60,605 nucleotides of DNA from the NCBI GenBank assembly GCA_021770615.1, contig JAETQR010000025.1:1-60605 (forward strand). Direction: 5' to 3'. The notes beneath the pieces are model-generated. The model saw only the letters and a program-made list of their open reading frames with translations, was not told where the DNA came from and ran no database searches. Position 1 is the stretch's first letter; the number at the start of each line of letters is the position of its first letter. This DNA is from Lachnospiraceae bacterium (GTDB lineage: Bacteria; Bacillota_A; Clostridia; Lachnospirales; Lachnospiraceae). Of this stretch, positions 14,153 through 54,131 are shown piece after piece. The position numbers and the translations under genes are program-made.

Positions 14153-14186
14153 CAGCGGCAGCCAGGAATGTGTAGAGGAGCAGAAA

Positions 14187-16386: not shown

Positions 16387-17856
16387 ATGAAGAGGGAAAA
16401 GTTCGGTTCACGCCTGGGATTTATTCTTGTATCGGCAGGGTGTGCCATCGGGATTGGAAATGTATGGAAATTTCCGTATTTATGTGGTGAGATGGGAGGC
16501 GCCGCCTTTATTTTGATATACCTGGTGTTTCTGGCGGTCTTGGGAATTCCGGTACTGACCAGCGAATTTGCCATCGGGAGGGGCAGCAGATACAGTGTGG
16601 CTGCGGCTTACGAAAGGCTGGAGCCCCAGGGAACTAGATGGCATTATACAAAATGGATCGGTATCCTGGGAAGTTATCTCCTTATGATGTTTTATACGAC
16701 TGTGGGCGGATGGATGCTGTACTATTGCTACCGAAGCGTGACCGGTGAATTTGTGGGGGCGGACGCGGAGTATGTACAGAATGGGTTCGGCGGGATGCTG
16801 GGCGCCCCGGGGGTAATGGCCTTTTGGACGATCCTGATTACCGTGGCCGGATTTGCGGTCTGCTGGTTTGGGATTCAAAATGGAATTGAGAAAGTAACAA
16901 AGATCATGATGATGGCACTGCTGGTGATCATGGTCGTGCTGGCAGTGCACTCATTTTTCCTGGAAGGAGCCGGCAAAGGCATTGAATTTTATCTGATACC
17001 GGATTTTAAGAAAATGGTTGAGATCGGGATCGGCAATGTGATCTTTGGCGCCATGAGCCAGGCGTTTTTCACTTTGTCCATCGGAATCGGAGCTATGATG
17101 ATCTTCGGAAGTTATATGGGTAAAGAGCAGAGCCTGACAGGGGAGGCTGTCAATATTACGATTTTGGATACATTTGTGGCGTTGATGGCCGGATTTATTA
17201 TTATCCCTGCATGCTTTGCTTTTGGGATCCAGCCGGACTCCGGCCCGAGCCTGATCTTTATCACTATCCCCAATCTGTTTGCACAGATGCCGGGAGGACG
17301 CTGGTGGGGCGCTCTGTTCTTCCTGTTTCTGACGTTTGCGGCATTTTCTACCCTGGTAGCGGTATTTGAAAATATTATTTCGTTTCATATTGATCTGTTA
17401 CAATGGTCCAGAAGAAAGAGTGTGATCGTGAGTATGTTGCTGATCATTATCCTGAGTATGCCGTGCGTGCTGGGCTTTAATATCCTGGCAGGCTTTCAGC
17501 CTCTGGGAGCCGGGAGCACAGTCCTTGACCTGGAGGATTTTATCGTGTCTAATAATCTGCTTCCTCTTGGAAGCCTCGGATATCTGCTGTTTGTCACAAG
17601 AAAGAACGGATGGGGCTGGGAGCGGTTCCTGGAAGAAGCAAATACCGGAGAGGGGCTTAAATTCCCGGGGACGCTTCAGGGATACGTGGGATACGGGATC
17701 CCGCTCATCATCATTATCATTTATCTGAAAGGCTATTACGATAAGTTCAGCAGCATGGGTACGGCAGCATTGGTGGTCTGGATGGCTGCTGCAGTGGTTT
17801 TCCTTGGCTTTGTGCTCTATTGCGCGCTGGCCGGAGGAAAAAGGACAGACCGGTAG
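16387..17856 (+). CDS. Sodium-dependent transporter of the NSS/SNF family
   Basis: 489 residues with about 11-12 membrane spans. It opens with the family's FGSRLGFILVSAGCAIGIGN and WKFPYLCGEMGGAAF, the unwound TM1 that binds Na+ and substrate in LeuT. The QAFFTLSIGIGAMM segment (TM6) and the FEN motif follow. These carriers import amino acids or related amines with Na+; the substrate is not readable from sequence. GAGAGG precedes the ATG. A 43-nt gap separates it from greA. Confidence 0.92.
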   Translation: MKREKFGSRLGFILVSAGCAIGIGNVWKFPYLCGEMGGAAFILIYLVFLAVLGIPVLTSEFAIGRGSRYSVAAAYERLEPQGTRWHYTKWIGILGSYLLMMFYTTVGGWMLYYCYRSVTGEFVGADAEYVQNGFGGMLGAPGVMAFWTILITVAGFAVCWFGIQNGIEKVTKIMMMALLVIMVVLAVHSFFLEGAGKGIEFYLIPDFKKMVEIGIGNVIFGAMSQAFFTLSIGIGAMMIFGSYMGKEQSLTGEAVNITILDTFVALMAGFIIIPACFAFGIQPDSGPSLIFITIPNLFAQMPGGRWWGALFFLFLTFAAFSTLVAVFENIISFHIDLLQWSRRKSVIVSMLLIIILSMPCVLGFNILAGFQPLGAGSTVLDLEDFIVSNNLLPLGSLGYLLFVTRKNGWGWERFLEEANTGEGLKFPGTLQGYVGYGIPLIIIIIYLKGYYDKFSSMGTAALVVWMAAAVVFLGFVLYCALAGGKRTDR

Positions 17857-17924
17857 TATTTGACAGTGGCGGTGCAGAAGTATTATGATGAAAATAATAT
17901 AATGTTTAACAGGAGGAATATGAA

Positions 17925-18605
17925 ATGAGGTATCAGATATTGGGCGAGACGCTTCCGGTGGTGATCTGCGAACTGGAAGGCGGAGAGAAGATGATCACAG
18001 AGGGTGGAGGCATGTCCTGGATGTCTCCGAATATGCTGATGGAGACTACCACGAACGGCGGGGTCGGAAAAGCTCTTGGGAGAATGTTTTCCGGGGAAAA
18101 GATGTTCCAGAATATCTATACTGCCCAGGGCGGCCCGGGGATGATCGCATTTGCATCCAGCTTCCCGGGATCCATCCGGCCGTTCCATATCGGACCGGGG
18201 CAGGAGATGATCTTCCAGAAAAGTGCGTTCCTTGCAGGTGAGATGGGGATCCAATTGTCAGTATTTTTCAATAAAAAATTCAGCGCAGGGCTGTTCGGCG
18301 GCGAGGGATTTATTATGCAGAGGATCAGCGGACAGGGAACCGTGTTTGCTGAGTTTGACGGCCATGTTGTGGAATATGAGCTTCAGCCGGGACAGCAGAT
18401 CGTAGTGGACACGGGGCATTTGGCTGCCATGACGGCAAGCTGCAATATGGAAATTAAGAGCGTGCCGGGCGTGAAAAATATGCTGTTTGGCGGCGAGGGC
18501 GTGTTTAATACGGTTATCAGCGGCCCGGGAAAGGTATGGCTGCAGACGATGCCGATCAGTAACGTGGCAGGAGCCTTGAGGCCTTACATGCCGACAGGGA
18601 ATTAA
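17925..18605 (+). CDS. AIM24/TIGR00266 family protein
   Basis: 226 residues forming the trimeric beta-prism-like AIM24 fold: ITEGGGMSWMSPNMLMETTT, FHIGPGQEMIFQKSAFLAGE, LFGGEGFIMQRISGQGTVF, PGQQIVVDTGHLAAM and MLFGGEGVFNTVISGPGKVW, the paired GGEG motifs diagnostic of the family. The bacterial function is unknown; the mitochondrial relative affects membrane organisation. AGGAGG precedes the ATG. It is followed by the ClC gene after 59 nt. Confidence 0.9.
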   Translation: MRYQILGETLPVVICELEGGEKMITEGGGMSWMSPNMLMETTTNGGVGKALGRMFSGEKMFQNIYTAQGGPGMIAFASSFPGSIRPFHIGPGQEMIFQKSAFLAGEMGIQLSVFFNKKFSAGLFGGEGFIMQRISGQGTVFAEFDGHVVEYELQPGQQIVVDTGHLAAMTASCNMEIKSVPGVKNMLFGGEGVFNTVISGPGKVWLQTMPISNVAGALRPYMPTGN

Positions 18606-38316: not shown

Positions 38317-38327
38317 AGAGGTGCATG

Positions 38328-40052
38328 ATGGGAAATTGTAAGCTTGTAAATGAATTAAATAGATTGAGAAAGTCATCAAGTGATTCTATTGATGGAATTA
38401 CTAGCTTCGATGATTTTAATAAATATATGCATGTTTCAAGACGCGTTGAAGAGAACCTTATTGATATTCTGAATAAGGTTAATAGCTCTGGAAAGAAGAC
38501 ATTAGTATTGCTCTGTGGGAGTGCAGGAGACGGAAAATCACATCTTTTATCCTTTTTGAAAAACGAAAAAAAACTTTTAAACAATTATACCGTTTACAAT
38601 GATGCAACTGAAAGCAGTTCACCTTCGAAAACGGCGATTGAGACTTTATATGAAGTTTTATCCGATTTTTCTGATGAAAACTTAGATTCCTCAGGAAAGA
38701 ATTTCATATTAGCAATCAATTTGGGCGTATTAAGTAATTTTATTGAATCATCTTATGGTGATTCGTTTCAGAAATTGCATGAGTATGTAATTAAAAGCAA
38801 TATTCTTGCTAATCAGTTAAATGCAAGTGGATATGATGCAAATAGCTCATTTCAGCATGTGAGTTTTTCTGATTATCATATGTATACATTAACAGCGAAA
38901 GGCGTAAAGCCAGTTTACCTTGAACGTATATTTGAAAAAGTGTTTCGTCTGAGCGATGATAATCCATTTTACCGTGTTTATGAAAATCACTGTAAAGTTT
39001 GTCCTCTTTCAGAAAAATGTCCAGTTAAGCATAACTTTGAATTTTTAGCAGAAGAAAAAATCCGAGAGTATATTGCAAAAGCTCTTGTGGAAGTGACAAT
39101 TAAAGATAAAGAAATACTTACTACTCGTGAAATTCTTAATTATATTTACGATATAGTAGTCGCCCCCAAATTTAATTACAAGAAGATTACACAATCATCT
39201 ACTAATACTATCTCATTTTTAAAGGAGTATGTTAATGATATAAGCCCGTCCCTAATGTATGAATATAGTGATATGTCATCATTGCTTAATCTATTAAGGC
39301 GTTACGACCCCTTGTTAAATAGGTCGGAAGCAGCAGATGAAGACGCGATATTTTACTATGTTTCCTCAGATGTTGAAAAGGAAATTGTAAAGGTAGTGGG
39401 AGAAGTAGCATTTGGAAAGGTATTATGCCAAAAGCCTGTCATTGTTAAAATAAATGATGATAGAGTATTGAAAGCACAGTTGTTTAAAATTCTTGTACGC
39501 GTGAGAGCAATGCGGGATGAGCCGAGAGATACAAACGCTTATTCAGCCTTTCTGAATACTTTGTTTTATTACAATACAGGAAGAATAAAAAAATTTGGAG
39601 AACTGTATAGTCTTGTAGAAGATGCAATTGTTCAATGGTGTGGTAGTGAATCCAGCGATAGCATCTGTTTTGATGATTTACATGAAGGAATCACTTTGTA
39701 TGAGCATATTGATTTCGAACCATATTTGGAGGATATTCCATCAGAGCAAAAAGTTGAAGAACTTCAAAGATTTTTGCCATATATTGTTGTAAAATATGAA
39801 AATAAAAATACTGGAGAGATTATTTCTTTAGATATTGATTATTCTTTGTACGAACTGATTTATAAGCTTGCATCGGGTTATATTCAAACTGCTGACGATA
39901 GAAACAATCATGCGGATTTTATTAGTTTCATTCAAAAAATACTCAAAACAGGAACCGCAGATAAAGAACTTACTCTGGTTACTGAGGATAATCGAAAAGC
40001 CGTTATTGAGAAAACAAAATTTGGCGTTTATAAATTTAAGGTGGTGAAGTAA
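38328..40052 (+). CDS. dptF: Phosphorothioation-dependent restriction protein DptF
   Basis: 574 residues from the second of two tandem ATGs (38328), six bases after AGAGG. DptF is an ATPase component of the DptFGH (DndFGH) restriction complex that attacks DNA lacking phosphorothioate. The P-loop LLCGSAGDGKSHLL has its Lys at 70. A cysteine cluster CKVCPLSEKCPVKH near residue 225 could bind metal. The C-terminal half has no further motif that I can name. The stop codon overlaps the dptG start by one base. Confidence 0.88.
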   Translation: MGNCKLVNELNRLRKSSSDSIDGITSFDDFNKYMHVSRRVEENLIDILNKVNSSGKKTLVLLCGSAGDGKSHLLSFLKNEKKLLNNYTVYNDATESSSPSKTAIETLYEVLSDFSDENLDSSGKNFILAINLGVLSNFIESSYGDSFQKLHEYVIKSNILANQLNASGYDANSSFQHVSFSDYHMYTLTAKGVKPVYLERIFEKVFRLSDDNPFYRVYENHCKVCPLSEKCPVKHNFEFLAEEKIREYIAKALVEVTIKDKEILTTREILNYIYDIVVAPKFNYKKITQSSTNTISFLKEYVNDISPSLMYEYSDMSSLLNLLRRYDPLLNRSEAADEDAIFYYVSSDVEKEIVKVVGEVAFGKVLCQKPVIVKINDDRVLKAQLFKILVRVRAMRDEPRDTNAYSAFLNTLFYYNTGRIKKFGELYSLVEDAIVQWCGSESSDSICFDDLHEGITLYEHIDFEPYLEDIPSEQKVEELQRFLPYIVVKYENKNTGEIISLDIDYSLYELIYKLASGYIQTADDRNNHADFISFIQKILKTGTADKELTLVTEDNRKAVIEKTKFGVYKFKVVK

Positions 40053-41461
40053 TGAATTATCAATTTGATTACAATAAATTTTGTGAAACCTTTAATGTAA
40101 AAACTGATAAAGCTGCTGATTCATTAAGACTTACGCATACTCAAGATATTTGTTTTCACTTATTTCCGTACAAAGCAAGCGGTAAAGCACAGGCACCGAT
40201 TATTACTGAACTTGATGAAATTGTTAGTGGATTCTTCAGAAAAGCATTAGGTTTGAGAACAGAGCCTGTGAAATTTGATGTATTATGTGAAAATATCATT
40301 TCTGGAATGAATATAGAAGATAAGGATATTGAGTTGTTTAAGGAAATGATACAGAATCTTTTCTTTGAAGGTGATGAATTCATTGCCAAAAATTTAGGAT
40401 TATATCCTTATCAGACATGTATCAATAATAAAAGTGCAGATAGACTTGCCGGGTTTTTACTTGATGTTTTTGGTATTGATGAAAATGATTGTAAGACTAT
40501 TGATCAGGCAATGAAAAACTATCCATACAATGTTGTTGAGAAGATGGTTGTCGAAGCTATTCAGGCAACAAAAATTAGCATACAAGAGAAGAAGCAAGCG
40601 TATTTTCCAATTGTAGTAGATGTTCAGAAAAAGTTTAAAGAGGATTTTCATTTCATGTTAGAGATAGGCATGACATCTTTGGAAGACTTTTCAAATCTAT
40701 TGGCAATATATTATTTTTACTATATGTCCCAGACCTGTGTGACGTTAGATCAATTCTGCCAGGGGCGTAGAGATGATCCTGTCAAACTCTATTATGCATT
40801 GGATTGGGAAAAGGTAAGTAGGAATCGTAAATGTTGTGTAGAGGGATGGGAAAGAATTCAAGAAAAAACCACCCATATGTTTAGCCATGCTCTCACTTTG
40901 GAGATATTGAATCAGCATACACTTCCTGATGTAATGCTGGACTATATAACGTTGCAAGAATATGTAGATCAACATCCGGAACAAGATGTAGCTATTGCTA
41001 GGGAGGTTGAAAGAGCTGAGCAGGCGTATACATCCTGTGTAGGTGATTATAAAAAGTTTGATCAGATAAAGTTTACATCAGGTGGTTCAAAAACTGACGC
41101 TGCGATTCGTCATTTATATAAATGCGTAGAAGAACAGTTTTTGAATACTGATCGAAAGAGAGCAAATCAATTCTACAATGAAAAATTTACGGATTTTTGC
41201 AAAACAAGATGGATTAAAAACAGACGTAAATCGGGATTAGTATTGAATCTTACAGAGAGGGATATTATATTCTTGACTAAAATTTCAATTAAGGAAAAGG
41301 AAAAAGTACGATTGATTGATTTATACAAGGAATATGAGTATAGAGGTGTTTTCCTTGATAATACATCAAAAGAGAATTTGCAGGAGTTCTTTACCAAATT
41401 AAACCTTATTGATAAAAAGAGTGATAGTGGAGATGCACAGTATGTTAAAAGAATTTTATGA
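40052..41461 (+). CDS. dptG: Phosphorothioation-dependent restriction protein DptG
   Basis: 469 residues, recognised as DptG by its position between dptF and dptH and by overall pattern (MNYQFDYNKFCETFNVKTDK, then TQDICFHLFPYKAS near residue 30). There is no nucleotide-binding or nuclease motif. DptG is the least understood subunit of the restriction complex. AAGGTGG precedes the ATG. The end overlaps the dptH start by 20 nt, so the three are translationally coupled. Confidence 0.82.
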   Translation: MNYQFDYNKFCETFNVKTDKAADSLRLTHTQDICFHLFPYKASGKAQAPIITELDEIVSGFFRKALGLRTEPVKFDVLCENIISGMNIEDKDIELFKEMIQNLFFEGDEFIAKNLGLYPYQTCINNKSADRLAGFLLDVFGIDENDCKTIDQAMKNYPYNVVEKMVVEAIQATKISIQEKKQAYFPIVVDVQKKFKEDFHFMLEIGMTSLEDFSNLLAIYYFYYMSQTCVTLDQFCQGRRDDPVKLYYALDWEKVSRNRKCCVEGWERIQEKTTHMFSHALTLEILNQHTLPDVMLDYITLQEYVDQHPEQDVAIAREVERAEQAYTSCVGDYKKFDQIKFTSGGSKTDAAIRHLYKCVEEQFLNTDRKRANQFYNEKFTDFCKTRWIKNRRKSGLVLNLTERDIIFLTKISIKEKEKVRLIDLYKEYEYRGVFLDNTSKENLQEFFTKLNLIDKKSDSGDAQYVKRIL

Positions 41462-44400
41462 TTTTATAGCAAAAAGAATAAATCGCTATTTCTTGGAGTT
41501 ATCAGACGAGGGAGCATTACAAAAAGGAGAAAGTTTTTGCTTAAAACTGGATGATCCGGAGACTGTTCAAGAAGTATCAGATGCTTTGAAGGAATTAGCA
41601 CTGAAAGAGAACAATCTTGGTTCTTATGAATATGAATGCATGAATGGCTCCATATACAGAACATTTACACTGAAAGTCATTGATGATGAAATAATAATTG
41701 CAGCACAAATAAATGGAATGACGAATGATTTTCTTTGCGCTACTTTGAGAAATGCTGCAAATGATGCAGGCAAGCCATTGCTAATGATTTCTTCAAACCC
41801 TATTGATAGTGCTAAGAGTGGTTCAAGGGATATGTCTGCTCACGGTATGCCTTTTTATGCAGATAATCTTATGGATGAAATCAAAAATATGGCTGAGGAA
41901 AGTACACAATTATCGGTCTTGGAAAAAAGAATTCTTGCTTTTGAACTTAAGAGAAGAGATAATGATGTGTTTAGCGATAAGGCTTCTCTATATGAATATA
42001 GGGACTTACTATCTATCATGAGTAGTGGTAGTATTGCGAAAGAAAATTATCCCGGATTCCGATTATTTCCTGTAGATGGAAAAAAAGATTATCAAAACGA
42101 AGGAAAATTGCAAATTGATAAAAAACTGAAAGAGAACCATGAGTTGTTCGAAAAAATAGACCGTAGTATCCGATTTGGAAATGTGGAAACAGATCTGGCT
42201 GAAGATTTTGAAGAAGGATTTTTAGTTCGTATTGAAAAAAGCAGGAAAGATGATCCGGAGCATTGGAGTATTTTGTTCACCTATGCTGAGATGTTGGCAG
42301 CAATGGAAAGGAAGCAGGCAAAAAAGGATAATCCACTCGATATTGAATTAAAAGATATATCTATTTATGGGGAATTACCTTTATATTCTCTTCCGATGGA
42401 TGAAATGGTTTTTGTTAGAAATGAAGGTTCTATGAAAACTAAAAAGAGAACGAGAAGTATGGTTATTTTTAATCCAGATAAATTTAGTGAGATTCATATT
42501 CGTCTGGAATGCAATACACGCATTGGAAATAGTGATATTTCTGCTGACGATGCTACTTATGTTCGCGATGGGAAAAACCTGGTTTTCGAGTTCCAAAGAG
42601 AGAATGTTTCATTCCATAAAATTGAAGTCAAGGATTCCGTAAATCATATTACTTATGTGTTCAAAATATGTATTGTTGATATTTTTGCAGAATATTTGGT
42701 GGGGACCATTAAACGTAATTTTGTCATTGAATATAAAAAGACAAAGAAAAATTGTAAGATTAAATTGATAGGGATTGGAACAGATCTTGTATTTAATGTT
42801 AGTGGAGCTACTAATATTTCCGAAAAATTGAATGATAATACCCAATATCAGTGTAAGTATAATGAACGACTTCATTTATACATTACAGAGGAAGAATTGT
42901 CCAATTATGGAAGTGGTATTTTTATTGAAATCAATTTTTCAGGCATAATATTGCCTTTTGTCTTGTATCCTGACGAAATGAAAAGTATTGAAATAATTGG
43001 GAGAAAAATTCTTAAAGATAAGTTTGCTTCACAAAAGAGCTTCCAGTTAGATGAAGGGGATCATTTTTATAAAGATTCACAGGAATATCATGCAAAAGCA
43101 AATCTATTAAAAGAATTGCGTCTTGAGAAACATATTATCAATGAGCGTATTCTTTATGGAAGATGCAAACAAGTTCATGGATCAGATGCTGTTACCGTGG
43201 AGTCTGAAGAATTAGTATTACCATTGACATTAAAACAGGCTTATTATGATTTACTTCAAGAGTTCAAGAATAGTAGCACCGTTCCGACTCTAGCATATTT
43301 GTCTGGTGAATTACGGGATGCTGTGGAAAAATACTTACAGGAATTCTGGAATTTATATACATCACTTCAAGATGGTAGTAATCTTAGCACAGAGCAGGAA
43401 AATGCTCTTTTGTTAGGCACTTTACTTTTGGGGAAGAATGATGATGAAATTATGTTTACACCATTTCATCCGTTAAATCTTGCTTATCAGTTAGAACTCT
43501 GCAAAGAGTCAGAATTTGAAAATGCTTCAGATATAGTCATAGATCGACTGAATTCAGTTTGTCTCTTACCATATACTAAGCACAACAAGCGAATTTATAA
43601 GGTGTCCGATCAAATGTATTCGATGGAATGGAAGTATTATGCTCCTGTTGAGAATCGTAGGTATCGTGGCAGCCGAAGATTTGTTCCGAAATTAATTGAA
43701 GAGAAGATTACAGAATTTGTTTCTCATTTCCGATATATCTTTTCAGATATTAATAATAAAAAGGTTCATATTAATTTGATAAATATGGGGGATTGTAGTG
43801 ACGTTTTCATTGGAGTGGCTCAGTATTTTGTTCATGCAATTGGAAAGACTCCTGATGTTGATCAGCTGATGAAATTTGAAATACATATTTATACTGAAAA
43901 TCCTAAAACGAACGTATTTACAAATATTAAAGAATTTACTTGCTTAAAGGCATATCTGAATGCTTGTAAATTATCATTTGCAAATGGGACCGCCATGAAT
44001 AGTCTGGAAGGAGTTCTTTCCAAAAATGTTGAATGTTACTTTCACAAAGACAATGGCAAACAATATGAATATGCGCATATATCATTCTATGAAATGGAAT
44101 CTGAAATTACTTCAGAAACTGCAACGATGGATCAGATTGAAACGGGTATTTCCATTGGCGGAATTGTATCAGGAATTCCATCTAGCAAATATGGGCAGAA
44201 ATATAGAACAGGTTTTGGAATGAAATATGCGAAAAGAACCCCGGTTGTTGAACTTGCAGAAAAATACAACGCTCTTGTAGAAGTTGGAAATACAGGGAAT
44301 CCTTATCACCCGGGCACAAGTATTTCGACACAGATTGATAAGTTGGCTGAAAACAAAATGGAATACATATATAAAGCATCCAACTGGGTAGTATTCATTG

Positions 44401-46781
44401 ATCCGAAGGTAGATCTGGATTTCTTTAGCGAGAAGGAAGCGAACAGTGATTTGCTAATTATCCATTATAGTGATCAGTATACGTCGAGCAGTGGCTATGA
44501 TGCGATTACTGTTACACATAAGTCAAAGCAATATTCAACAGTAATTCAGGAATATCTCAAGGAAAAGGGAATTGATGCTGAGTTACAGGATGTTGCAAAA
44601 ATAATTAATCTGTTCAATGCAATTAACGGCGATTGGTTATTGCGACTGGTTTCCTCGAAGAAAACGATTGGTGCAAATAAAGACACAACATTTTCAAGAG
44701 AAAAAATCAGCATTGTTGCGGCCATTAAATTTATGCTTGCATTTTTAAGACATCCGGATATTGTATGGGTACCGATTTCTTTGGAAGAGATGTTGCGTGT
44801 ATCTGGAGGTGCAGGATTATCCAGTACTGAAGGAATACTATCATATAAAAATCTTGGATTTGAAAAGGGACCTACAAGCGATGACCTTTTGTTTATAGGA
44901 TTAAATCATGTGTCTGATCAGATTAAAATCTACCTATATCCAACAGAAGTCAAAACTGGTATCAATGCTGCTGATGTCATCAAAAAAGCATTTGAACAGG
45001 TTTCAGCAACTGCTACAGGACTTCAAGAGGCAATGAATCCAGAAGGAAATATATCAAATACTATTATGTACAAGGTGAATAGAAATTTCTTAATGCAACT
45101 TTTTGTTACAAGCTGTAAGAAAATGAAGGTTTACCATGTAGATGATTCTCAGGACTGGGATGTTATTCTCGATAAGTTCCGATTAGCATTATTGAATGAA
45201 GATTACATAATTTCTACGGAGATTCAGGAACTCTTAGGACGTGGTTCTGTATTGTCGTTCCGGCAGGCATTGGTTTCCGGAAAGACGTCCTTCAAAGAAG
45301 ATACAATTAATTTTATTGAAATGCCTGAGCAGGATGAATTTGATCTGATTTTAAGAAGCGTTGATGATATTCATGCAGATATTCAGAATAAGAGAGATAA
45401 TAATCTACTCATATTTGAAGAATGTAAAGTAGACCATTTGACTGGAGATCTTACAGGTATAGAAAGTACGAGATTGGAAGAAACTGGTGAAACGACAACT
45501 GCTTCAACAGGAGAAGAAACTGGGAATACTGTTGAAACTAAAATTGATAATACAGAAAATGATTCAAAAGATAATGAACTGCATGCCCAGGAAGATACTG
45601 ATGAGTCGAATGAAGAACTAGGAATGAGCATTGTATTTGGAACAAACCAGCAGGATGGTTCTGCAGTAATCTGGGAACCCAATAATACAGATATCTTGTT
45701 TCATACTAATACGGGGATCATTGGAACTATGGGTACTGGTAAAACACAGTTTACAAAATCATTGATTACACAGTTATATCGAGAGCAAAAAAAGAATGTT
45801 GGTGATGAACCTCTCGGCATTTTGATTTTTGATTATAAGGGGGATTATAACGAAAGCAAACAGGATTTTGTGGGGGCTACGAAAGCAACGATTTTGAAGC
45901 CATATCAGTTACCATTTAATCCATTGGCGTTAACAAAGTCAAAAGTATTTAAGCCATTATTACCGGTTCATACGGCAAATGCTTTTAAAGATACTATATC
46001 CAAGGTATATGGATTAGGACCAAAACAGCAGGATACATTGTTTCAATGCATTATTGAAACATATAGTGCATGTGGCATTTCTGCTCCAAATTCTGCTAGT
46101 TGGGATAATGAAGCTCCGACATTCGAGCAGGTATATCAGAGATATGCCAATGATGAAGGTATTAAAAAGAATGATTCGTTGGCAGCTGCAATGAACAAAC
46201 TACATCAGTTCCAGGTATTTGAAAATGTACCAAGCAAAACAAAATCGTTATTCGATATTCTGGATGGCGTTGTTGTAATTGACCTGTCAGGTTATGATAC
46301 AGATATTCAGAGTCTGATTGTCGCAATTACACTTGATCTATTTTATGCTCAGATGCAAGCTGTTGGTTCAAGTAAGTTGGAAGGTAAGTGTAGACAGCTT
46401 ACAAAGTTGATTCTTGTAGATGAAGCCGATAATTTCATGTCAGAAGGATTTCCTTCTTTGAAAAAAATATTGAAGGAAGGTCGAGAGTTTGGTGTTGGAA
46501 CTATTTTGTCAACGCAGTTCTTGAAGCATTTTGGCTCAGGCGATGATGACTATGCAAAATACATTCTAACATGGATCGTACATAATGTTGCTGATTTAAA
46601 ACTTAGTGATGTAGACTTTGTATTTAAGACTGAGAACAAGAGTGTTGAAAGCCAGATGCTGTTTAATGATATCAAAAAACTGCAGAAGCATTATAGCATT
46701 GTTAAAATTAGCTCTGAAAAGCCTAAATATATTAAAGACCGTGCATTCTGGGAATTATATAGCGATCTGAAATCAATTTGA
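41442..46781 (+). CDS. dptH: Phosphorothioation-dependent restriction protein DptH
   Basis: 1779 residues from the ATG at 41442 (GGAG 9 nt upstream); in-frame codons at 41409 and 41433 are less well placed. The large N-terminal part is unrecognised. A strongly acidic, Thr/Glu/Asp-rich linker spans about residues 1335-1395. The C-terminal 370 residues are a HerA/FtsK-like ATPase: Walker A GTMGTGKTQF near 1427-1436, an FDYKGDY motif, Walker B LILVDEADNF and ILSTQFLKHF. DptH drives ATP-dependent restriction with DptF and DptG. The TGA sits inside the -35 of the internal promoter. Confidence 0.88.
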   Translation: MLKEFYDFIAKRINRYFLELSDEGALQKGESFCLKLDDPETVQEVSDALKELALKENNLGSYEYECMNGSIYRTFTLKVIDDEIIIAAQINGMTNDFLCATLRNAANDAGKPLLMISSNPIDSAKSGSRDMSAHGMPFYADNLMDEIKNMAEESTQLSVLEKRILAFELKRRDNDVFSDKASLYEYRDLLSIMSSGSIAKENYPGFRLFPVDGKKDYQNEGKLQIDKKLKENHELFEKIDRSIRFGNVETDLAEDFEEGFLVRIEKSRKDDPEHWSILFTYAEMLAAMERKQAKKDNPLDIELKDISIYGELPLYSLPMDEMVFVRNEGSMKTKKRTRSMVIFNPDKFSEIHIRLECNTRIGNSDISADDATYVRDGKNLVFEFQRENVSFHKIEVKDSVNHITYVFKICIVDIFAEYLVGTIKRNFVIEYKKTKKNCKIKLIGIGTDLVFNVSGATNISEKLNDNTQYQCKYNERLHLYITEEELSNYGSGIFIEINFSGIILPFVLYPDEMKSIEIIGRKILKDKFASQKSFQLDEGDHFYKDSQEYHAKANLLKELRLEKHIINERILYGRCKQVHGSDAVTVESEELVLPLTLKQAYYDLLQEFKNSSTVPTLAYLSGELRDAVEKYLQEFWNLYTSLQDGSNLSTEQENALLLGTLLLGKNDDEIMFTPFHPLNLAYQLELCKESEFENASDIVIDRLNSVCLLPYTKHNKRIYKVSDQMYSMEWKYYAPVENRRYRGSRRFVPKLIEEKITEFVSHFRYIFSDINNKKVHINLINMGDCSDVFIGVAQYFVHAIGKTPDVDQLMKFEIHIYTENPKTNVFTNIKEFTCLKAYLNACKLSFANGTAMNSLEGVLSKNVECYFHKDNGKQYEYAHISFYEMESEITSETATMDQIETGISIGGIVSGIPSSKYGQKYRTGFGMKYAKRTPVVELAEKYNALVEVGNTGNPYHPGTSISTQIDKLAENKMEYIYKASNWVVFIDPKVDLDFFSEKEANSDLLIIHYSDQYTSSSGYDAITVTHKSKQYSTVIQEYLKEKGIDAELQDVAKIINLFNAINGDWLLRLVSSKKTIGANKDTTFSREKISIVAAIKFMLAFLRHPDIVWVPISLEEMLRVSGGAGLSSTEGILSYKNLGFEKGPTSDDLLFIGLNHVSDQIKIYLYPTEVKTGINAADVIKKAFEQVSATATGLQEAMNPEGNISNTIMYKVNRNFLMQLFVTSCKKMKVYHVDDSQDWDVILDKFRLALLNEDYIISTEIQELLGRGSVLSFRQALVSGKTSFKEDTINFIEMPEQDEFDLILRSVDDIHADIQNKRDNNLLIFEECKVDHLTGDLTGIESTRLEETGETTTASTGEETGNTVETKIDNTENDSKDNELHAQEDTDESNEELGMSIVFGTNQQDGSAVIWEPNNTDILFHTNTGIIGTMGTGKTQFTKSLITQLYREQKKNVGDEPLGILIFDYKGDYNESKQDFVGATKATILKPYQLPFNPLALTKSKVFKPLLPVHTANAFKDTISKVYGLGPKQQDTLFQCIIETYSACGISAPNSASWDNEAPTFEQVYQRYANDEGIKKNDSLAAAMNKLHQFQVFENVPSKTKSLFDILDGVVVIDLSGYDTDIQSLIVAITLDLFYAQMQAVGSSKLEGKCRQLTKLILVDEADNFMSEGFPSLKKILKEGREFGVGTILSTQFLKHFGSGDDDYAKYILTWIVHNVADLKLSDVDFVFKTENKSVESQMLFNDIKKLQKHYSIVKISSEKPKYIKDRAFWELYSDLKSI

Positions 46782-46821
46782 CGCAAGTAAAGCAAAGTGA
46801 TATACTTAAGTATATCACTTT
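46778..46821 (+). promoter_or_regulatory. Internal promoter with a perfect 28-bp palindrome before dndB
   Basis: TTGACG (46778-46783), a 17-nt spacer and TATACT (46801-46806) form a near-consensus SigA promoter lying on the dptH stop codon. The -10 is inside a perfect 28-bp palindrome at 46794-46821, half-site AAAGTGATATACTT with no loop. The dndB ATG at 46838 with GGAGG follows 16 nt after it. A repressor bound here would block transcription of dndBCDE, dndA and the HNH gene. DndB itself (a known repressor of dnd genes) or the XRE protein are the candidates. Confidence 0.8.
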
Positions 46822-46837
46822 TCCTTTGGAGGTCAAG

Positions 46838-47911
46838 ATGGATTTTGCATATAAGTTTCCTGTTGTAAGAGGTATTCAGGCAGGAAGAAAATATTATATT
46901 GCTATGATACCAATGAGAATGTTAGGGAGACTTTTCCCGTGTGAGGATGAGTATGTGCTTCCAGAGCATCGTGCACAGAGAAAGCTAAATGAAAGTCGAA
47001 TTCCTGTGATTAGTCGTTATATCACAGAGAACCGAGATACATATGTTTTTTCGGCTTTAGCAGCTTCTATTGATGGAGAATTTAAGTTTATATCTAGTAA
47101 TGAAAGTTCAGATATAGGTATTTTGGAGGTATCCATGGATGCCAGATTTCTGATCAATGATGGACAACATAGAAAGGCGGCTATTTTAGATGCCTTAAAC
47201 GAGGAGCCGGAATTAGGAAATGAAACAATTTCTGTTGTTTTATATGAAGATGCTGGATTGTCAAGAAGTCAACAGATTTTCACAGATCTGAATAAGCATG
47301 CTGTAAAAACATCGAATTCAATTGCGGAATTATATGATTCAAGAGATGATATTGCTGTAATTACAAGAAATGTGGTTTCAAGCGTACCATTTCTAAATGA
47401 ATATACCGATAAGGAAAAAGATAATTTGGGTAAATACTCTTCAAATTTGTTTACATTAAATACCTTCTACAGTTCAATTAAGCGTACAATTTCAGGCAAT
47501 AAACCAGATAATGTAATGCAGAAATTTCTCATTGATTTTTGGAGATGTGTTACAGCTAACATTGTTCAGTGGTGTGAACTATCTAAGAAAGAAATTTCAA
47601 AGGTTGATTTAAGAGAGAACTACATAGTCACCCAGGGTGTTGTGATCCAAGCATTGGGACAAGTAGGAACATATTTTTATAAAAATCCTGATACCGATAT
47701 GGAACGAATGCTGAAAAGATTAAAGAATATAGATTGGAAACGAAGTGCTTCTATTTGGAGATATAGAGTAATCCGTGTAGATGGAAAAATTCTTACAAGT
47801 AATAAAGCAATACTTCTTACTGCCAATCAAATAAAGAAAGAACTTGGTATCCCACTTTTGCCAGACGAAGAGCTGAAAGAGAAGCGATATTTAGAAAGTT
47901 TGAATGTCTAG
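46838..47911 (+). CDS. dndB: DndB, DGQHR-domain regulator of phosphorothioation
   Basis: 357 residues from the ATG at 46838, which has TTTGGAGGTCAAG directly upstream. An in-frame TTG at 46778 would make the operator palindrome coding and is rejected. The DGQHR motif is exact (LINDGQHRKAAI), preceded by FPVVRGIQAGRKYYIAM and followed by the IFTDLNKHAVKTSNS block. DndB is a negative regulator of dnd transcription and lowers modification frequency. The gene leads the modification half of the island. Confidence 0.92.
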   Translation: MDFAYKFPVVRGIQAGRKYYIAMIPMRMLGRLFPCEDEYVLPEHRAQRKLNESRIPVISRYITENRDTYVFSALAASIDGEFKFISSNESSDIGILEVSMDARFLINDGQHRKAAILDALNEEPELGNETISVVLYEDAGLSRSQQIFTDLNKHAVKTSNSIAELYDSRDDIAVITRNVVSSVPFLNEYTDKEKDNLGKYSSNLFTLNTFYSSIKRTISGNKPDNVMQKFLIDFWRCVTANIVQWCELSKKEISKVDLRENYIVTQGVVIQALGQVGTYFYKNPDTDMERMLKRLKNIDWKRSASIWRYRVIRVDGKILTSNKAILLTANQIKKELGIPLLPDEELKEKRYLESLNV

Positions 47912-47924
47912 GAGCGATAAATAG

Positions 47925-49484
47925 ATGGCAGAAAAATGTGTAAGTTGTGAAGCCAATAAGCAAGGTGTAACAATTTCTAAAAATACAATTGAAGGATTAA
48001 AGGAAATGATTCGTAATTTGTATCTGGCGGATGATATTCCATGGGTGATTGGATATTCGGGCGGAAAAGACAGTACTGCAACATTGCAGTTGGTTTGGTT
48101 AGCGCTTGAAGAATTATCTCCAGAACAGTTGAAAAACGCAAAAAAGGTCCATGTAATTAATACAGACACTATGGTAGAGTCGCCGGTAATGTCAAAGTGG
48201 GTTCAGGATTCTCTTAAAATCATGGATATGAGAGCAACACAATCTGGGCTTCCCTTTGTAACACATAGATTGACTCCGGAAATGGATAATACATTTTGGG
48301 TAAATCTTCTTGGAAGAGGCTATCCGTTCCCTAGAAAGAAGTTACGATGGTGTACAGATCGTTTGAAAATTCAGCCGGTGAACAAGTTTGTAAAAGAACA
48401 GATTGCAGAACATGGAGAGATTATACTTGTAATTGGTACCCGTAAAGCAGAAAGTGCCAGACGTGCAAAAACCATGGCTTATTATGAAAAGAAAAGAGTT
48501 AGAGAACTTCTTAGTCCTAATCCGTCTATGGCGAATGAATTGGTATTTTCACCTTTAGAAGAGTGGAATGATAATGACGTGTGGGTATTTCTTATGCAAT
48601 ATAGGAACCCATGGGGATATTCTAACACAGATTTACTGACCCTTTACCGAGGTGCTACAGCTGATAATGAGTGCCCTATGATGATTGAGAAGGGGCTTCC
48701 AAGTTGCGGGAAAAGTCGGTTTGGTTGTTGGGTTTGCACCATGGTTGAAAAAGATAAATCTATGGAGGCAATGATTGCCAATGATGATGAAAAGGTCTGG
48801 ATGACACCATTACTGGAGTTTCGAAATTATTTTGGTGATGAGGAAAATGATCGTTCTAGAAGAAGCTTCAGAAAAATGCAGGGATTTCTTCAGGGAACTT
48901 ATAAGCAGCTACATCACGGTCCTTACCTGAAGGAGTGGCGTGAAAAATGGTTGCGGAAATTGCTCGAAATACAGGTTGAAATTAACAAAAATGGTCCGGA
49001 GGAGTTCCCTGATTTGGAATTGATCACACTTCCGGAACTGAGAAATATAAGAAGAATTTGGGTTTTTGATAAACATGAATTCGAGGATTCACTACCTGGA
49101 ATATATGAAGATGTTACAGGTGAAAAATTCGAAGATCCAGAATGGGTTGGTTCAGAAGCATTTCGTAAGGAAGAATGGGATACATTAAAGGAAGTTGTGG
49201 ATGAATTATATCCTAACGAGGAATTAGCATTTGAAATGGCATACAGCCTGATTGATATTGAAAATCAGGCCAGTAGTTTAAATAAACGAAAGGGAATTAC
49301 TGATTCCCTGGAAAGTTGCATTAGAAAAACTTTTTATAAGGACGAAGAGGATGCAACTCAATATTATATGGATCGAGTAATTCGAAAGAAGGACTTGGGA
49401 GGAAAATACAATCCATTGGCATTGGATAGTCGCTATGATTATCTCAATGTTGATGATAGCGAAGACGAGGATGCAATAGAATGA
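47925..49484 (+). CDS. dndC: DndC, ATP pyrophosphatase / sulfurtransferase
   Basis: 519 residues of the PAPS-reductase-like family. The PP-loop is SGGKDST (45-51), followed by VINTDTMVESP. The cluster-binding cysteines typical of DndC are visible: LRWCTDRLK, DNECPMM and the group SCGKSRFGCWVC. DndC carries a [4Fe-4S] cluster and activates DNA or sulfur with ATP for phosphorothioate insertion. A 13-nt gap separates it from dndB; the stop overlaps dndD by 4 nt. Confidence 0.95.
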   Translation: MAEKCVSCEANKQGVTISKNTIEGLKEMIRNLYLADDIPWVIGYSGGKDSTATLQLVWLALEELSPEQLKNAKKVHVINTDTMVESPVMSKWVQDSLKIMDMRATQSGLPFVTHRLTPEMDNTFWVNLLGRGYPFPRKKLRWCTDRLKIQPVNKFVKEQIAEHGEIILVIGTRKAESARRAKTMAYYEKKRVRELLSPNPSMANELVFSPLEEWNDNDVWVFLMQYRNPWGYSNTDLLTLYRGATADNECPMMIEKGLPSCGKSRFGCWVCTMVEKDKSMEAMIANDDEKVWMTPLLEFRNYFGDEENDRSRRSFRKMQGFLQGTYKQLHHGPYLKEWREKWLRKLLEIQVEINKNGPEEFPDLELITLPELRNIRRIWVFDKHEFEDSLPGIYEDVTGEKFEDPEWVGSEAFRKEEWDTLKEVVDELYPNEELAFEMAYSLIDIENQASSLNKRKGITDSLESCIRKTFYKDEEDATQYYMDRVIRKKDLGGKYNPLALDSRYDYLNVDDSEDEDAIE

Positions 49485-51430
49485 TTTTAAAGAAATTGAT
49501 TATGCACAATTTTGGTGTATATGCATCTACAAATCAATTTGAATTTCATGGAGAAAAACCGATTGTTTTAATCGGTGGCATGAATGGTAGAGGAAAAACT
49601 ACTTTTTTAGAAGCTGTGCTTCTTGGATTATATGGTTCGAATTCATTTGCATATACCGAAAGTAAATTTAAAACGTATGGTCAATACTTAAAATCATACG
49701 TTAATAAAGCTGATGGAACGAAAAAGACTTATATTGAACTAGAATTTTCAATGGATGGCTCAGACGAAGAAGTATACTTGGTTCATCGAGAATGGGATGG
49801 AAATACCCAGAGAATCCGGGAAAAAATATGGGTTAAGAAAAATGGTATTGATAATTCATTTCTGACAGAAAATTGGTCAATGTTTGTTGAAAATATTTTA
49901 CCAAGTGCTCTATCTAATTTCTTTTTTTTTGACGGAGAAAAGATTGCGGAACTTGCGGTTGAAAATACAAACTCTCAGATGAAAGAATCAATTAAAGCGT
50001 TGTTGGGAATTTCAGTACTTGATTTGTTAAACAATGATCTTGGACGAATCATTTCACGTCTGAGTGCTGCATCAACTGAAGACCAGGATCTTATTTATCT
50101 AGAGCAACTGCGTCAAAAGAGAGATAGTGCCGATGAAGATTTAAAAAATGTCGATGATGAAATTCGACGATTGAAGGAAAAGATTGAAGGACTGCATATT
50201 GAATTGGAAAAGAAAAATTCTGAGTATGCAATTAAGGGTGGAGATATTATTGAGCAACGTCATGACCTTTTGAAACAAAGAGCACAGCAGAATGCATTAC
50301 TTGAAAGATATGAAGATGATTTTCTTGAGCATGTTGCTGGAGAAATGCCGCTCTTACTTGTAAGTGAACTTCTTTCTGATATTGAAGTTCAAGGGGCAAT
50401 GGAGCAGTCATACAAAACATCAGTAATGGCAACCAATAAGGTTAGAACTCTTTATGATGATTTTGTAAGCAGATATCCAGAAGCTAGAGATGCACTAAGC
50501 AAGTTCGTTGAATTTGTTCAAGCAGATAATGATGCAAAAAAGCAGGAAGAAATATATGGGCTTTCAGACAGTACGTTATATCAGATTCATCGGTTGAATT
50601 TTTATGAATTAAAGGAATGTGCCAAGTATGTAAAAATACAAATGCAGCGAAGAGATGAGAGTCAAAACAAGATTGATGAAATAGATAATTATCTGTCCGT
50701 AGACATTGATGAGAAGGCTTTGAATCGAATCTTTAAAAGAATTAAGGAATTAGAAAAAGAGATATTAACAGAGGAGGTAAATCTGGCAGCTTTACAGCAG
50801 AAGCGGACGACATTACACGGAGCTGCTATGATTGCAGAGATTGAATTTAATAAAGCAGCAGAACAAGTACTCTCTTCGCTTGAATCTAATGACGATGATA
50901 AGAGAACCGTGAAGTATGCTCATATGGCAATCGAAATTATTAAGCGTTATCGAGTTCGCCTTCAGCAAAACAAAACAGGTGTGTTAGCCAATACAATGAC
51001 TAATTGTTATAGAAAGCTTGCTTATAAAAAGCATCTGATTGAAAAAATTCAGATGGATCCTGTAACCTTGGATCTTCATTATTTGAATGGTAACGGGGAG
51101 GAAGTTGAAAAAAAGAAACTTTCGGCAGGTGAAAAGCAGCTGATGGTTATATCGTTACTGTGGGCTTTGGCGATATGCTCTAAGAAAAAATTGCCAGTAA
51201 TTATTGATACACCATTATCTCGTTTGGATTCAATTCATCGAGAGGCATTGATTACCACATATTTTCCAAATGCAAGTGATCAGACGATTATTCTCTCAAC
51301 TGATTCTGAAATTGATCATATATACTATGAATTGATGAAGCCGCATATCGGAGATGAATTTACTCTAGTATACGATGATGAGCTGATGAAGACCTCTATA
51401 AAAGAGGGATATTTATTCGAAGGAAATTGA
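49481..51430 (+). CDS. dndD: DndD, SMC-like ATPase
   Basis: 649 residues. The N-terminal Walker A is GGMNGRGKTT (32-41). The coiled coil spans about 195-270 and 400-450. The C-terminal ABC signature LSAGEKQL lies near residue 547 and Walker B PVIIDTPLSRLD near 575. This is the SbcC/RecN-like layout of DndD, which powers phosphorothioate insertion with DndC and DndE. The ATG overlaps the dndC stop (ATGA). Confidence 0.94.
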   Translation: MILKKLIMHNFGVYASTNQFEFHGEKPIVLIGGMNGRGKTTFLEAVLLGLYGSNSFAYTESKFKTYGQYLKSYVNKADGTKKTYIELEFSMDGSDEEVYLVHREWDGNTQRIREKIWVKKNGIDNSFLTENWSMFVENILPSALSNFFFFDGEKIAELAVENTNSQMKESIKALLGISVLDLLNNDLGRIISRLSAASTEDQDLIYLEQLRQKRDSADEDLKNVDDEIRRLKEKIEGLHIELEKKNSEYAIKGGDIIEQRHDLLKQRAQQNALLERYEDDFLEHVAGEMPLLLVSELLSDIEVQGAMEQSYKTSVMATNKVRTLYDDFVSRYPEARDALSKFVEFVQADNDAKKQEEIYGLSDSTLYQIHRLNFYELKECAKYVKIQMQRRDESQNKIDEIDNYLSVDIDEKALNRIFKRIKELEKEILTEEVNLAALQQKRTTLHGAAMIAEIEFNKAAEQVLSSLESNDDDKRTVKYAHMAIEIIKRYRVRLQQNKTGVLANTMTNCYRKLAYKKHLIEKIQMDPVTLDLHYLNGNGEEVEKKKLSAGEKQLMVISLLWALAICSKKKLPVIIDTPLSRLDSIHREALITTYFPNASDQTIILSTDSEIDHIYYELMKPHIGDEFTLVYDDELMKTSIKEGYLFEGN

Positions 51431-51431
51431 T

Positions 51432-51815
51432 ATGTTAGTAAAGCAAATAAGGTTGTCAAACCAGTCAAAGGACCGGCTTGGAAGATTAAAAGGAAAAACA
51501 GGAATAAAGAATTGGAATGTTCTTTGTAGATGGGCTTTTTGTTACTCTTTGGGAGAATATACAATGCCTACAGATATTCCAATAGTTGCAGATAGTAATG
51601 TAGAAATGTCATGGTTTACATTTGCCGGAGAGCATAGTGATTTATATGATGCTCTCATGAAAGCATGGTGTATTAGAATGGGGCTTTCAACAGATGAGGA
51701 AACGCTTTCTAAGTATTTTAGGTTACACTTAGAGAGAGGAATCGCGCACCTATCCGGTACTAATTTTATTAAGAATCTTGATGATTTAATGAATCTGGCA
51801 ATTGAGGAGAAGTAA
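51432..51815 (+). CDS. dndE: DndE, nicked-DNA-binding modification subunit
   Basis: 127 residues, the usual DndE size. The N-terminal KQIRLSNQSKDRLGRLKGKT carries the Lys/Arg-rich surface used to bind nicked duplex DNA, followed by NVLCRWAFCYSLGE and the C-terminal LHLERGIAHLSG. DndE is the tetrameric DNA-binding partner of DndC/DndD. It starts one base after the dndD stop region, and its TAA overlaps the dndA ATG by one base. Confidence 0.92.
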   Translation: MLVKQIRLSNQSKDRLGRLKGKTGIKNWNVLCRWAFCYSLGEYTMPTDIPIVADSNVEMSWFTFAGEHSDLYDALMKAWCIRMGLSTDEETLSKYFRLHLERGIAHLSGTNFIKNLDDLMNLAIEEK

Positions 51816-52966
51816 TGGGAATATATCTTGATTATAATGCATCTGCACCGATTGACGAGAGAGTTCTTGAAGTAATGGTGGATGTATATAGGAACTCATA
51901 TGGTAATGCTGATAGCAGAACACATGATCATGGAGATCATGCGAGATCCATTGTAGAGAATGCAAGAAAACAGGTTGCTTCTCTTATTGGAGTAAATGCT
52001 ACAGAGGTATTCTTTACCAGTGGAGCAACTGAAGGTAACAATATTGCAATTCAGGGTCTTGAGGAATATGCTCATGAATCAAGAAAGAAGCATATTATTA
52101 CAACTGCTATTGAACATAAGGCAGTACTTGAAACAGCCAAAGCTATGCATAAAAAAGGATTCGAAGTTGATATAATTAAGCCAGATTTATCTGGGCGAAT
52201 CAGTATCAACAGTGTTTTGAATAAAATTCGAGAAGATACTTTTTTGGTGAGTGTTATGCATGTCAATAATGAAACAGGCATTATTCAACCGGTTCAAGAA
52301 CTTGGCGAGGAGCTGGGAAAAAGAAATGTTTTATTTCATATTGATGCAACACAAAGCTGTGGAAAACTTGTAGAAGAAATTAGAAATCTCAAATATAATA
52401 TGCTGTCATTCAGTGCTCATAAGCTGCAAGGACCGCAGGGAGTTGGAGCTCTGATATTAAAAAAGAAAAAATATAAACTTCCACCGATAAATCAGATTAT
52501 GTATGGCGGTCAACAGGAGCATGGAATCAGGCCCGGTACTATTCCGGTTGCATTAGTCGCTGGTTGCGGTAAAGCATGTGAAATTGCGGAACATGAGTAT
52601 AAAGACAATTCAAAGAAGATAAAAATGTTGAAAGAAACAATGGTTGAAATGTTAAATGACTCAGGTGTCGTTTTCCACTTTAATGGGGAACAGAAATATT
52701 GTATCGAAAGTACTGCTAATATTTGTTTTCCGGGTGTTATGTCTGAGGCGTTAATGTTATCAAGTAAACAGTATTGTAGTATTTCGAATGGTTCAGCATG
52801 TACATCAAAAAGTTATACTCCAAGTTATGTGTTGAAAGCTATGGGTATACCGATTGATGAGATTGAAAACTCAATCAGGGTGAGCTGGGGGCCGGATCTT
52901 TGTGTTGAGGAATTTAAAGTCAACTTTGAGCAATTACTACAGACAGTAAAAAATATTGCTTTTTAG
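51815..52966 (+). CDS. dndA: DndA, cysteine desulfurase
   Basis: 383 residues of the NifS/IscS class V aminotransferase family. It has IYLDYNASAPID at the N-terminus, TSGATEGNNIAIQG, HIDATQSCGK and the PLP lysine K203 in SAHKLQGPQG. The catalytic Cys is at about residue 329 in NGSACTSKSYTPS. It takes sulfur from cysteine and passes it to DndC. It sits inside the operon here, downstream of dndE, whereas in many loci dndA is divergent or replaced by iscS. Confidence 0.93.
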   Translation: MGIYLDYNASAPIDERVLEVMVDVYRNSYGNADSRTHDHGDHARSIVENARKQVASLIGVNATEVFFTSGATEGNNIAIQGLEEYAHESRKKHIITTAIEHKAVLETAKAMHKKGFEVDIIKPDLSGRISINSVLNKIREDTFLVSVMHVNNETGIIQPVQELGEELGKRNVLFHIDATQSCGKLVEEIRNLKYNMLSFSAHKLQGPQGVGALILKKKKYKLPPINQIMYGGQQEHGIRPGTIPVALVAGCGKACEIAEHEYKDNSKKIKMLKETMVEMLNDSGVVFHFNGEQKYCIESTANICFPGVMSEALMLSSKQYCSISNGSACTSKSYTPSYVLKAMGIPIDEIENSIRVSWGPDLCVEEFKVNFEQLLQTVKNIAF

Positions 52967-52985: not shown

Positions 52986-53996
52986 ATGGCAGGGTGGAAT
53001 TTAAAATTCGGTGAACTGAAAGATCAAGATGTGAGCGAAGATAGATACTGGACACTTTTTAATTATGTGTTTTCCGATAGTAGTAAAAAACGAAATACCT
53101 ATAAATTCGGACTTATTAAATCCATCCTGGATAACTTGTTCAATGGAACAGATACTGTTGCAGGGTTCTATATTTCTTATTATGACTTGTTTGCAAAGTT
53201 CGCGGAGAACTATTGGAATTTGATAGTAAAGTATGATCTTCGACAAATGCGTAAAGATGCAAGATCAGAGCTTTCTAAAATAGAAATTATTTTAAAGGCA
53301 GCGGTTCAAGATAATGTAATTCTTGAAAATCTAGAATTCGAGTCGATTGGTTCAAAACAGAAAGAACTAATAATCAAAAGTGTCGCCACAGAATGTAAGA
53401 GATGTGTTGTGGGCGCTTTGTATGAAGATTTTGATAGCACTCTGTATAGTTTTGTTCTGGCTGATCAGGGGTTGTATCTCAGCTATAAAGCTTACGAATT
53501 TATGCTGAAATATAAAACAGAAATTGAAAACTTAAATTACTATGCATGGGCCAAGTTTTTAGAAAAAATTAATACTGATGAGGCGTTAGTAAGAGTAATT
53601 GATAAATTGGAATTATCTACGCCAAGGAGAAACAACCTGACAGTTTATCGAGAAATCCTCAGGAAAGAGTTTCAGGAGCGCAATTGTTTTTACTGTGGTA
53701 AACCGTTAAGAAATACAATACATGTGGATCATTTGATTCCATGGTCTTTCATAAAGGACGATAAGATTTGGAATTTCGTATTAGCCTGCCCTTCGTGCAA
53801 TACTAGGAAAAACAATCGAGTTCCTAGCAGGGAGTATATTATCCGTTTGAAGAATAGGAATAAGAAGATACAACTGTTGGATAATGAGATTGTTAAAACA
53901 GATTTCAAGACATATTCGGACGATTTGCCAGGACGCATGTGGCAATATGCGAAGATGGGTGGGATAAAGGAATATCATTCGAATAAATCATGTTAG
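52986..53996 (+). CDS. HNH endonuclease terminating the Dnd/Dpt operon
   Basis: 336 residues. The C-terminal HNH/beta-beta-alpha-Me domain is complete: zinc-type C234-FYC237, catalytic motif IHVDHLIPWS (H246, H249), N263 in WNFVLACPSCN and C268/C271, with N272 in the last metal position (an HNN variant) and KNNRVPSREY after it. The N-terminal 200 residues are helical and unrecognised; they could carry DNA or phosphorothioate recognition. It starts 19 nt after dndA with a GGAGCGGG SD, so it belongs to the operon. It is not a standard Dnd/Dpt subunit and lacks the DUF262 domain of SspE. Confidence 0.85.
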   Translation: MAGWNLKFGELKDQDVSEDRYWTLFNYVFSDSSKKRNTYKFGLIKSILDNLFNGTDTVAGFYISYYDLFAKFAENYWNLIVKYDLRQMRKDARSELSKIEIILKAAVQDNVILENLEFESIGSKQKELIIKSVATECKRCVVGALYEDFDSTLYSFVLADQGLYLSYKAYEFMLKYKTEIENLNYYAWAKFLEKINTDEALVRVIDKLELSTPRRNNLTVYREILRKEFQERNCFYCGKPLRNTIHVDHLIPWSFIKDDKIWNFVLACPSCNTRKNNRVPSREYIIRLKNRNKKIQLLDNEIVKTDFKTYSDDLPGRMWQYAKMGGIKEYHSNKSC

Positions 53997-54102: not shown

Positions 54103-54131
54103 GATATTACCAAGTGGATGGAGGTACGCCA

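Follow-up and report, generated by a model that had tools for sequence, protein, structure and literature searches.

A predicted HNH endonuclease gene at the end of a dpt-dnd operon and the association of its family with phosphorothioate-type defence loci

Here, we present a computational analysis of an HNH endonuclease gene, P0001, which is located behind the Dnd genes for phosphorothioate (PT) modification and the dptFGH genes in a Lachnospiraceae bacterium. The window, i.e. the whole stretch of DNA that was analysed, comprises 60,605 nt of contig JAETQR010000025.1, and all its coordinates refer to the forward strand.

The HNH gene and its operon

P0001 (52986..53996, + strand) starts with ATG, encodes 336 aa and is the last gene of an operon-like same-strand run in which dndABCDE and dptFGH are all present. 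The run consists of dptF (dndF, 38325..40052), dptG (dndG, 40052..41461), dptH (dndH, 41409..46781), dndB (46778..47911), dndC (47925..49484), dndD (49481..51430), dndE (51432..51815) and the cysteine desulfurase gene dndA (51815..52966), all on the + strand and each assigned through profile matches from Pfam, PADLOC or NCBIfam. PADLOC yielded 1896 bits for DndH and 433/420 bits for SspA/DndA; the NCBIfam scores for DptH and DndA fall under the curated cut-offs of those families.

The 19 nt spacer between dndA and P0001 (52967..52985, + strand) carries an AGGAG motif ending 6 nt before the ATG. This spacing, the common strand and the shared AT-rich composition were pointed out in a first-pass annotation and are confirmed: the GC content of P0001 (0.350) lies within the range of the dpt-dnd-HNH genes (0.324-0.386), and the six flanking genes measured range from 0.430 to 0.515. 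At third codon positions, its GC content (0.359) is slightly higher than that of the remaining block (0.255-0.323). Between positions 51700 and 54300, no promoter-like or terminator-like site was found on the + strand, and four promoter-like sites and one terminator-like site were found on the - strand. The next gene downstream, a MerR/TipAS regulator at 54114, has a GC content of 0.43 compared to 0.35 for P0001. Due to the lack of such sites on the + strand and the differing downstream composition, the HNH gene closes the run. A chance open reading frame (ORF) is ruled out by the length of 336 aa, by relatives with 81-95% identity and by purifying selection: two closely related pairs among the relatives show ratios of nonsynonymous to synonymous substitution of 0.06 and 0.07. 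Synonymous sites are saturated in pairs including the window copy.

Domain architecture and known systems

The HNH core comprises residues 234-279 (53685..53822, + strand) with C234, C237, D248, H249, N263, C268, C271, N272 and K275, as defined by Pfam, the family alignment and an alignment to Cas9. The domain is complete and significant (PF01844, E 1.6e-11; PF13395, E 9.7e-11), as annotated before, and at E<=0.001 P0001 matches HNH families alone in Pfam, with neither a DUF262 nor an SRA match. Across 34 members of the family, one of which is the window copy, C237, D248, H249, N263, N272 and K275 are invariant, C234 and C271 are kept in 33 and C268 in 28. The earlier motif list needs correction in that it omits D248 and N272 and includes residue 246, which is His in only 21/34 members. 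By sequence and structure, Cas9 (Cas9/IscB) provides the nearest solved HNH domains. D248-H249, N263 and N272 face identical letters, D248 and N272 corresponding to the catalytic Asp and Asn of Cas9; we take the four partners to be D839, H840, N854 and N863 of SpCas9. In contrast to Cas9/IscB, P0001 has 336 aa in all and the other parts of Cas9 are without match. The predicted active site of the C-terminal nuclease appears intact, as would be expected of a PT-dependent endonuclease combining a sulfur-binding domain (SBD) with HNH, and P0001 is a probable single-chain DNA endonuclease.

The N-terminus, previously described as unrecognised, shows in the structure model (residues 18-213; 53037..53624, + strand) a winged-helix fold like the SBD of ScoMcrA and SprMcrA, and we tentatively regard it as a divergent SBD fold. 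In this model, the HNH core follows directly, with no SRA domain in between. A Y39-K40 dyad (53100..53105, + strand) stands at the start of helix 2, and the stretch L96-S97-K98-I99-E100 (53271..53285, + strand) lies before and at the start of helix 4, apparently where SprMcrA has Y78-P79..A82. In alignment A2, Y39 and E100 are kept in 72/72 rows and K40 in 71/72. With respect to the sulfur pocket (His/Tyr, Arg/Lys/Gln, Tyr, Pro, Ala), Y39-K40 would fit and S97 and E100 would not, in a mapping by helix order and not by residue-level structural alignment. The curated family NF045808 gave no match to P0001 at E<=0.001 and none to the N-terminal domains of 20 members at E<=10, a search in which HMMER filters discard most weak matches.

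SprMcrA and EcoWI (both SBD-HNH) as well as ScoMcrA (SBD-SRA-HNH) are likewise single proteins with an N-terminal winged helix of tentatively similar fold followed by HNH. P0001 differs from them in the missing NF045808 match, the apparent loss of the pocket proline and its location directly behind dndA. Reports on the rarity of SBD enzymes encoded beside dnd differ, with under 3.6% (PMC7461809) versus wHTH-SAD-HNH genes (wHTH, winged helix-turn-helix) in 698 taxa (PMC10853773; this paper, PMC11662687 and PMC12839542 are cited from excerpts). DndI (DUF262-DUF1524 HNH, in the arrangement IscS-DndBCDE-DndI) is also an HNH effector clustered with DndFGH and Dnd genes, and DndFGH and DndI act as two effectors on one Dnd modification (PMC11662687). 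P0001 lacks a DUF262/ParB-like NTPase domain, belongs to a different HNH family and has about half the length of DndI. Identity with DndI is ruled out, as the N-terminal DUF262 (GmrSD_N) was not found by Pfam at E<=0.001. Rakesh et al. 2024 described Dnd modification genes that are directly followed by genes for HNH or other nucleases, including HKD-helicase, wHTH-SAD-HNH and HARE-REase, and proposed restriction or backup roles (excerpt of PMC10853773). P0001 resembles these in its position directly after modification genes and in its HNH with a winged-helix N-terminus, and differs from wHTH-SAD-HNH in that no SRA (SAD) was found at E<=0.001; the HNH cases counted in that paper may or may not include this family. 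Standalone HNH genes also occur in BREX loci (PMC12839542). Among the open-access papers listed by literature searches, only some of which were opened (main text), none could be recognised as naming this HNH family.

Spread of the family and association with PT systems

A total of 1,097 proteins match P0001, and a search with a wider alignment gave 1,102 matches among 7,999 candidates scored; 120 matches were listed per search. By DNA patterns, 28 loci were fetched from 27 genomes. Neighbouring genes were scanned with Pfam in 12 loci (L003, L004, L007, L009, L011-L013, L015, L020, L022-L024) and read through similarity to window genes or to scanned loci in the other 16. In 10/28 loci the HNH gene lies within or beside a PT-type locus. 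It stands directly behind dndA in five (L001, L002, L017, L018 and L021, with L025 probably the opposite end of the L021 gene) and three ORFs past dndA in L008. It follows a DndA-like desulfurase gene in L020, a DptFGH locus with a BrxP/SspD-like 3'-phosphoadenosine 5'-phosphosulfate (PAPS) reductase, and in L023, a PglZ-BrxL (type-4 BREX-like) locus. L024 encodes a PAPS reductase that has an Fe-S motif and, by coordinate match, DUF4007; in L016, part of dndB is found on the opposite strand. Short gaps after desulfurase genes occur in nine loci, which represent three system types. The neighbours in the remaining loci are GmrSD, AbiH, helicase-PLD-DUF3427 with NUDIX, or helicase and MZB genes that we interpret as DISARM-like; some loci have no recognised neighbour.

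The HNH gene behind dndA at L018:10001-11002 has a stop at codon 4 and is either inactive or starts further in. In the metagenome protein P0022 (441 aa), about 109 DndA residues run in frame into a complete HNH family protein, which may reflect fusion by deletion, faulty assembly or decay of the operon. The L020 locus (L020:1-10963), with DptFGH-like genes, the PAPS reductase and the desulfurase, lacks dndBCDE within the part that was fetched, and its genome is without DndE; we read it as a mixed PT-type system. Among plasmids, six of 25 records with a match were opened, and these carry relatives with 25-36% identity. Neighbours in these six were BREX-1, type I-Fv CRISPR, an AAA ATPase-HNH pair, a HIT gene and an Ssp-like locus in opposite orientation; a small methyltransferase lies near the HNH gene twice, once beside type I-Fv CRISPR. 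A phage homing endonuclease is ruled out, as there was no family match in 50,697 phage records and none of the 98 IMG/VR sequences that matched by pattern could be confirmed.

A family dedicated to Dnd is ruled out as well, since DndE occurs in just 6/27 genomes carrying relatives. Contrary to the earlier description, the gene is thus not a built-in component of Dnd systems. Homologues lie mainly outside Dnd loci, yet they co-occur with Dnd more often than expected. Among 392 genomes from the order of the Anaerocolumna genome G002, presumably Lachnospirales, the HNH gene is present in 11 (one a weak 25% match), DndE in 13 and both in 4, with 0.36 expected (p 0.0002; 0.0024 without the centre genome). 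Without the four genomes first reached through the HNH gene p is 0.014, and adjacency alone then gives 0.18. Of the four genomes having both, three have the HNH gene immediately after dndA, and the fourth, G349, has it about 100 kb from a dnd locus carrying a distant 397-aa type instead. This type, which lacks the Zn cysteines and shows homology to the P0001 family along most of the protein (hhalign E 8.9e-17), occurs in 46/392 genomes with a weak DndE link (p 0.054; 0.36 without query and centre genomes).

A tree was calculated from 35 rows, L021 being a 196-residue piece; it covers neither the 397-aa types nor L005, L019, L023, L025-L028 and L070 (partial, split or duplicate) nor several short loci. 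On this tree, 3 changes account for the Dnd-adjacent copies (6.5 on average after shuffling) and 5 for the PT-linked copies (10.2 on average), with 1/500 shuffles as low in each case; the PT-linked label was assigned after the neighbourhoods were known, and near-copies favour clustering. A single clade of Dnd-adjacent copies is rejected (p-AU 0.0016). The family has joined PT-type operons more than once. A relative is present in 21 genomes lacking DndE; 13 of these were searched for DUF4007, which is common to Ssp and type-4 BREX (excerpt of PMC12839542), and 2 have it. As the other 11 have neither DndE nor DUF4007, the family is maintained where no PT system was detected.

The 397-aa HNH protein stands behind dndA at L058:14835-16639 and L059:6809-8578, followed by a small S-adenosylmethionine-dependent methyltransferase (called by Pfam for L058 and by similarity for the remaining loci). 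Such pairs also occur in L056, L066, L069 and L070, and, with the two genes reversed, on plasmids of Acinetobacter lwoffii (Pfam) and Pseudoalteromonas (annotation). Two more short HNH ORFs downstream of the L002 Dnd operon (13626-14201 and 17431-18024), 41-42% identical to the HNH part, match the 397-aa type. At L054:7070-8845 and L055:11305-13266, a protein of 591 or 653 aa without Pfam or PADLOC match lies directly behind dndA, and this site apparently serves as a slot for variable effectors. DpdH-like proteins (best PADLOC E 1e-31 to 7e-46) were detected beside dndBCDEA at L058:1-8653, L056:1468-5204 and L017:49-3850 and in L059, L060 and L061, with DpdF- and DpdE-like proteins in addition in L058. 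Judged by sequence, Dnd modification genes in L056, L058-L061 and L017 would adjoin restriction genes of the 7-deazaguanine (Dpd) system; no open-access literature pairing DndC with the names DpdE/F/H was found.

Possible roles of the HNH protein

We consider the chances about even that P0001 is a reader-triggered single-chain endonuclease, with an SBD-type winged-helix reader and a Cas9-like HNH, which is expressed from the operon as an auxiliary effector beside DptFGH. The N-terminal domain would read DNA and the HNH domain would cut it; the gene would probably be co-expressed as the final gene of the dpt-dnd operon, and the protein would serve as a second or backup restriction effector. The family is portable and attaches to many defence operons, PT operons several times among them. 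Given its presence in genomes where no PT system was detected, host safety can hardly depend on PT alone. The likeliest trigger would be a DNA state read by the N-terminal domain, such as a foreign modification (type IV-like) or DNA made during infection. A DNA-reading winged helix joined to HNH, with no obligate cognate modification gene across islands, is best explained by such a nuclease. All 8 Dnd loci having dndA and the HNH gene contain another effector-like module (L008 by similarity only), which fits an auxiliary role, but 8/10 other Dnd loci opened contain one likewise. The second effector proposed in the first-pass annotation remains plausible given the DndFGH-DndI precedent, for a gene that is not dedicated to Dnd.

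That annotation favoured inhibition by modification, which is now one possibility among several. A DndI-like effector cutting DNA without PT and blocked by PT on host DNA is possible but rather unlikely: PT keeps DndI off self DNA (excerpt of PMC11662687), and the repeated docking behind desulfurase genes points the same way, but P0001 has no DUF262 NTPase domain, and relatives in the 11 genomes without DndE and DUF4007 should be toxic there unless copies differ. A PT-inhibited version may exist if a subfamily specialised. In an unlikely variant, an inverted sulfur reader with SBD fold and rebuilt pocket (Pro to Ser, with the conserved Glu near the phosphate site) would grip the ordinary backbone and be displaced by PT, a PT-off one-protein effector that sulfur-modification operons of the Dnd, type-4 BREX-like and Ssp-like types would have acquired independently.

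We also regard it as improbable that P0001 is a passenger, a general defence-island nuclease cassette which often lands downstream of operons and has no functional Dnd link. The scarcity of DndE among genomes with relatives and the weak DndE link of the 397-aa type agree with this, whereas the short gaps behind desulfurase genes in three system types and the clustering of PT-linked copies, with the caveats given above, argue against it. Activation by PT, as in classical SBD-HNH enzymes or SspE, would mean cutting of PT-marked foreign DNA or a requirement for PT, and is very unlikely. The tentative SBD-like fold with its Tyr-Lys dyad and the domain order of SprMcrA and EcoWI are in favour, and the wHTH(SBD)-SAD-HNH genes in Dnd loci indicate that dnd loci may accommodate an SBD-type HNH (excerpt of PMC10853773). 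However, the PT-marked chromosome of the host would be attacked unless specificities differ, the pocket proline is apparently replaced by Ser97 with Glu100 in the pocket, and relatives occur in genomes without detected PT systems.

If P0001 is an effector, some PT operons hold a second nuclease which is neither of the DndI nor of the SRA type, and restriction would survive the removal of dptFGH. If its N-terminus is an SBD relative encoded in a PT-making operon, it would offer a natural case for testing how a reader of this kind can become safe for a PT-marked host.
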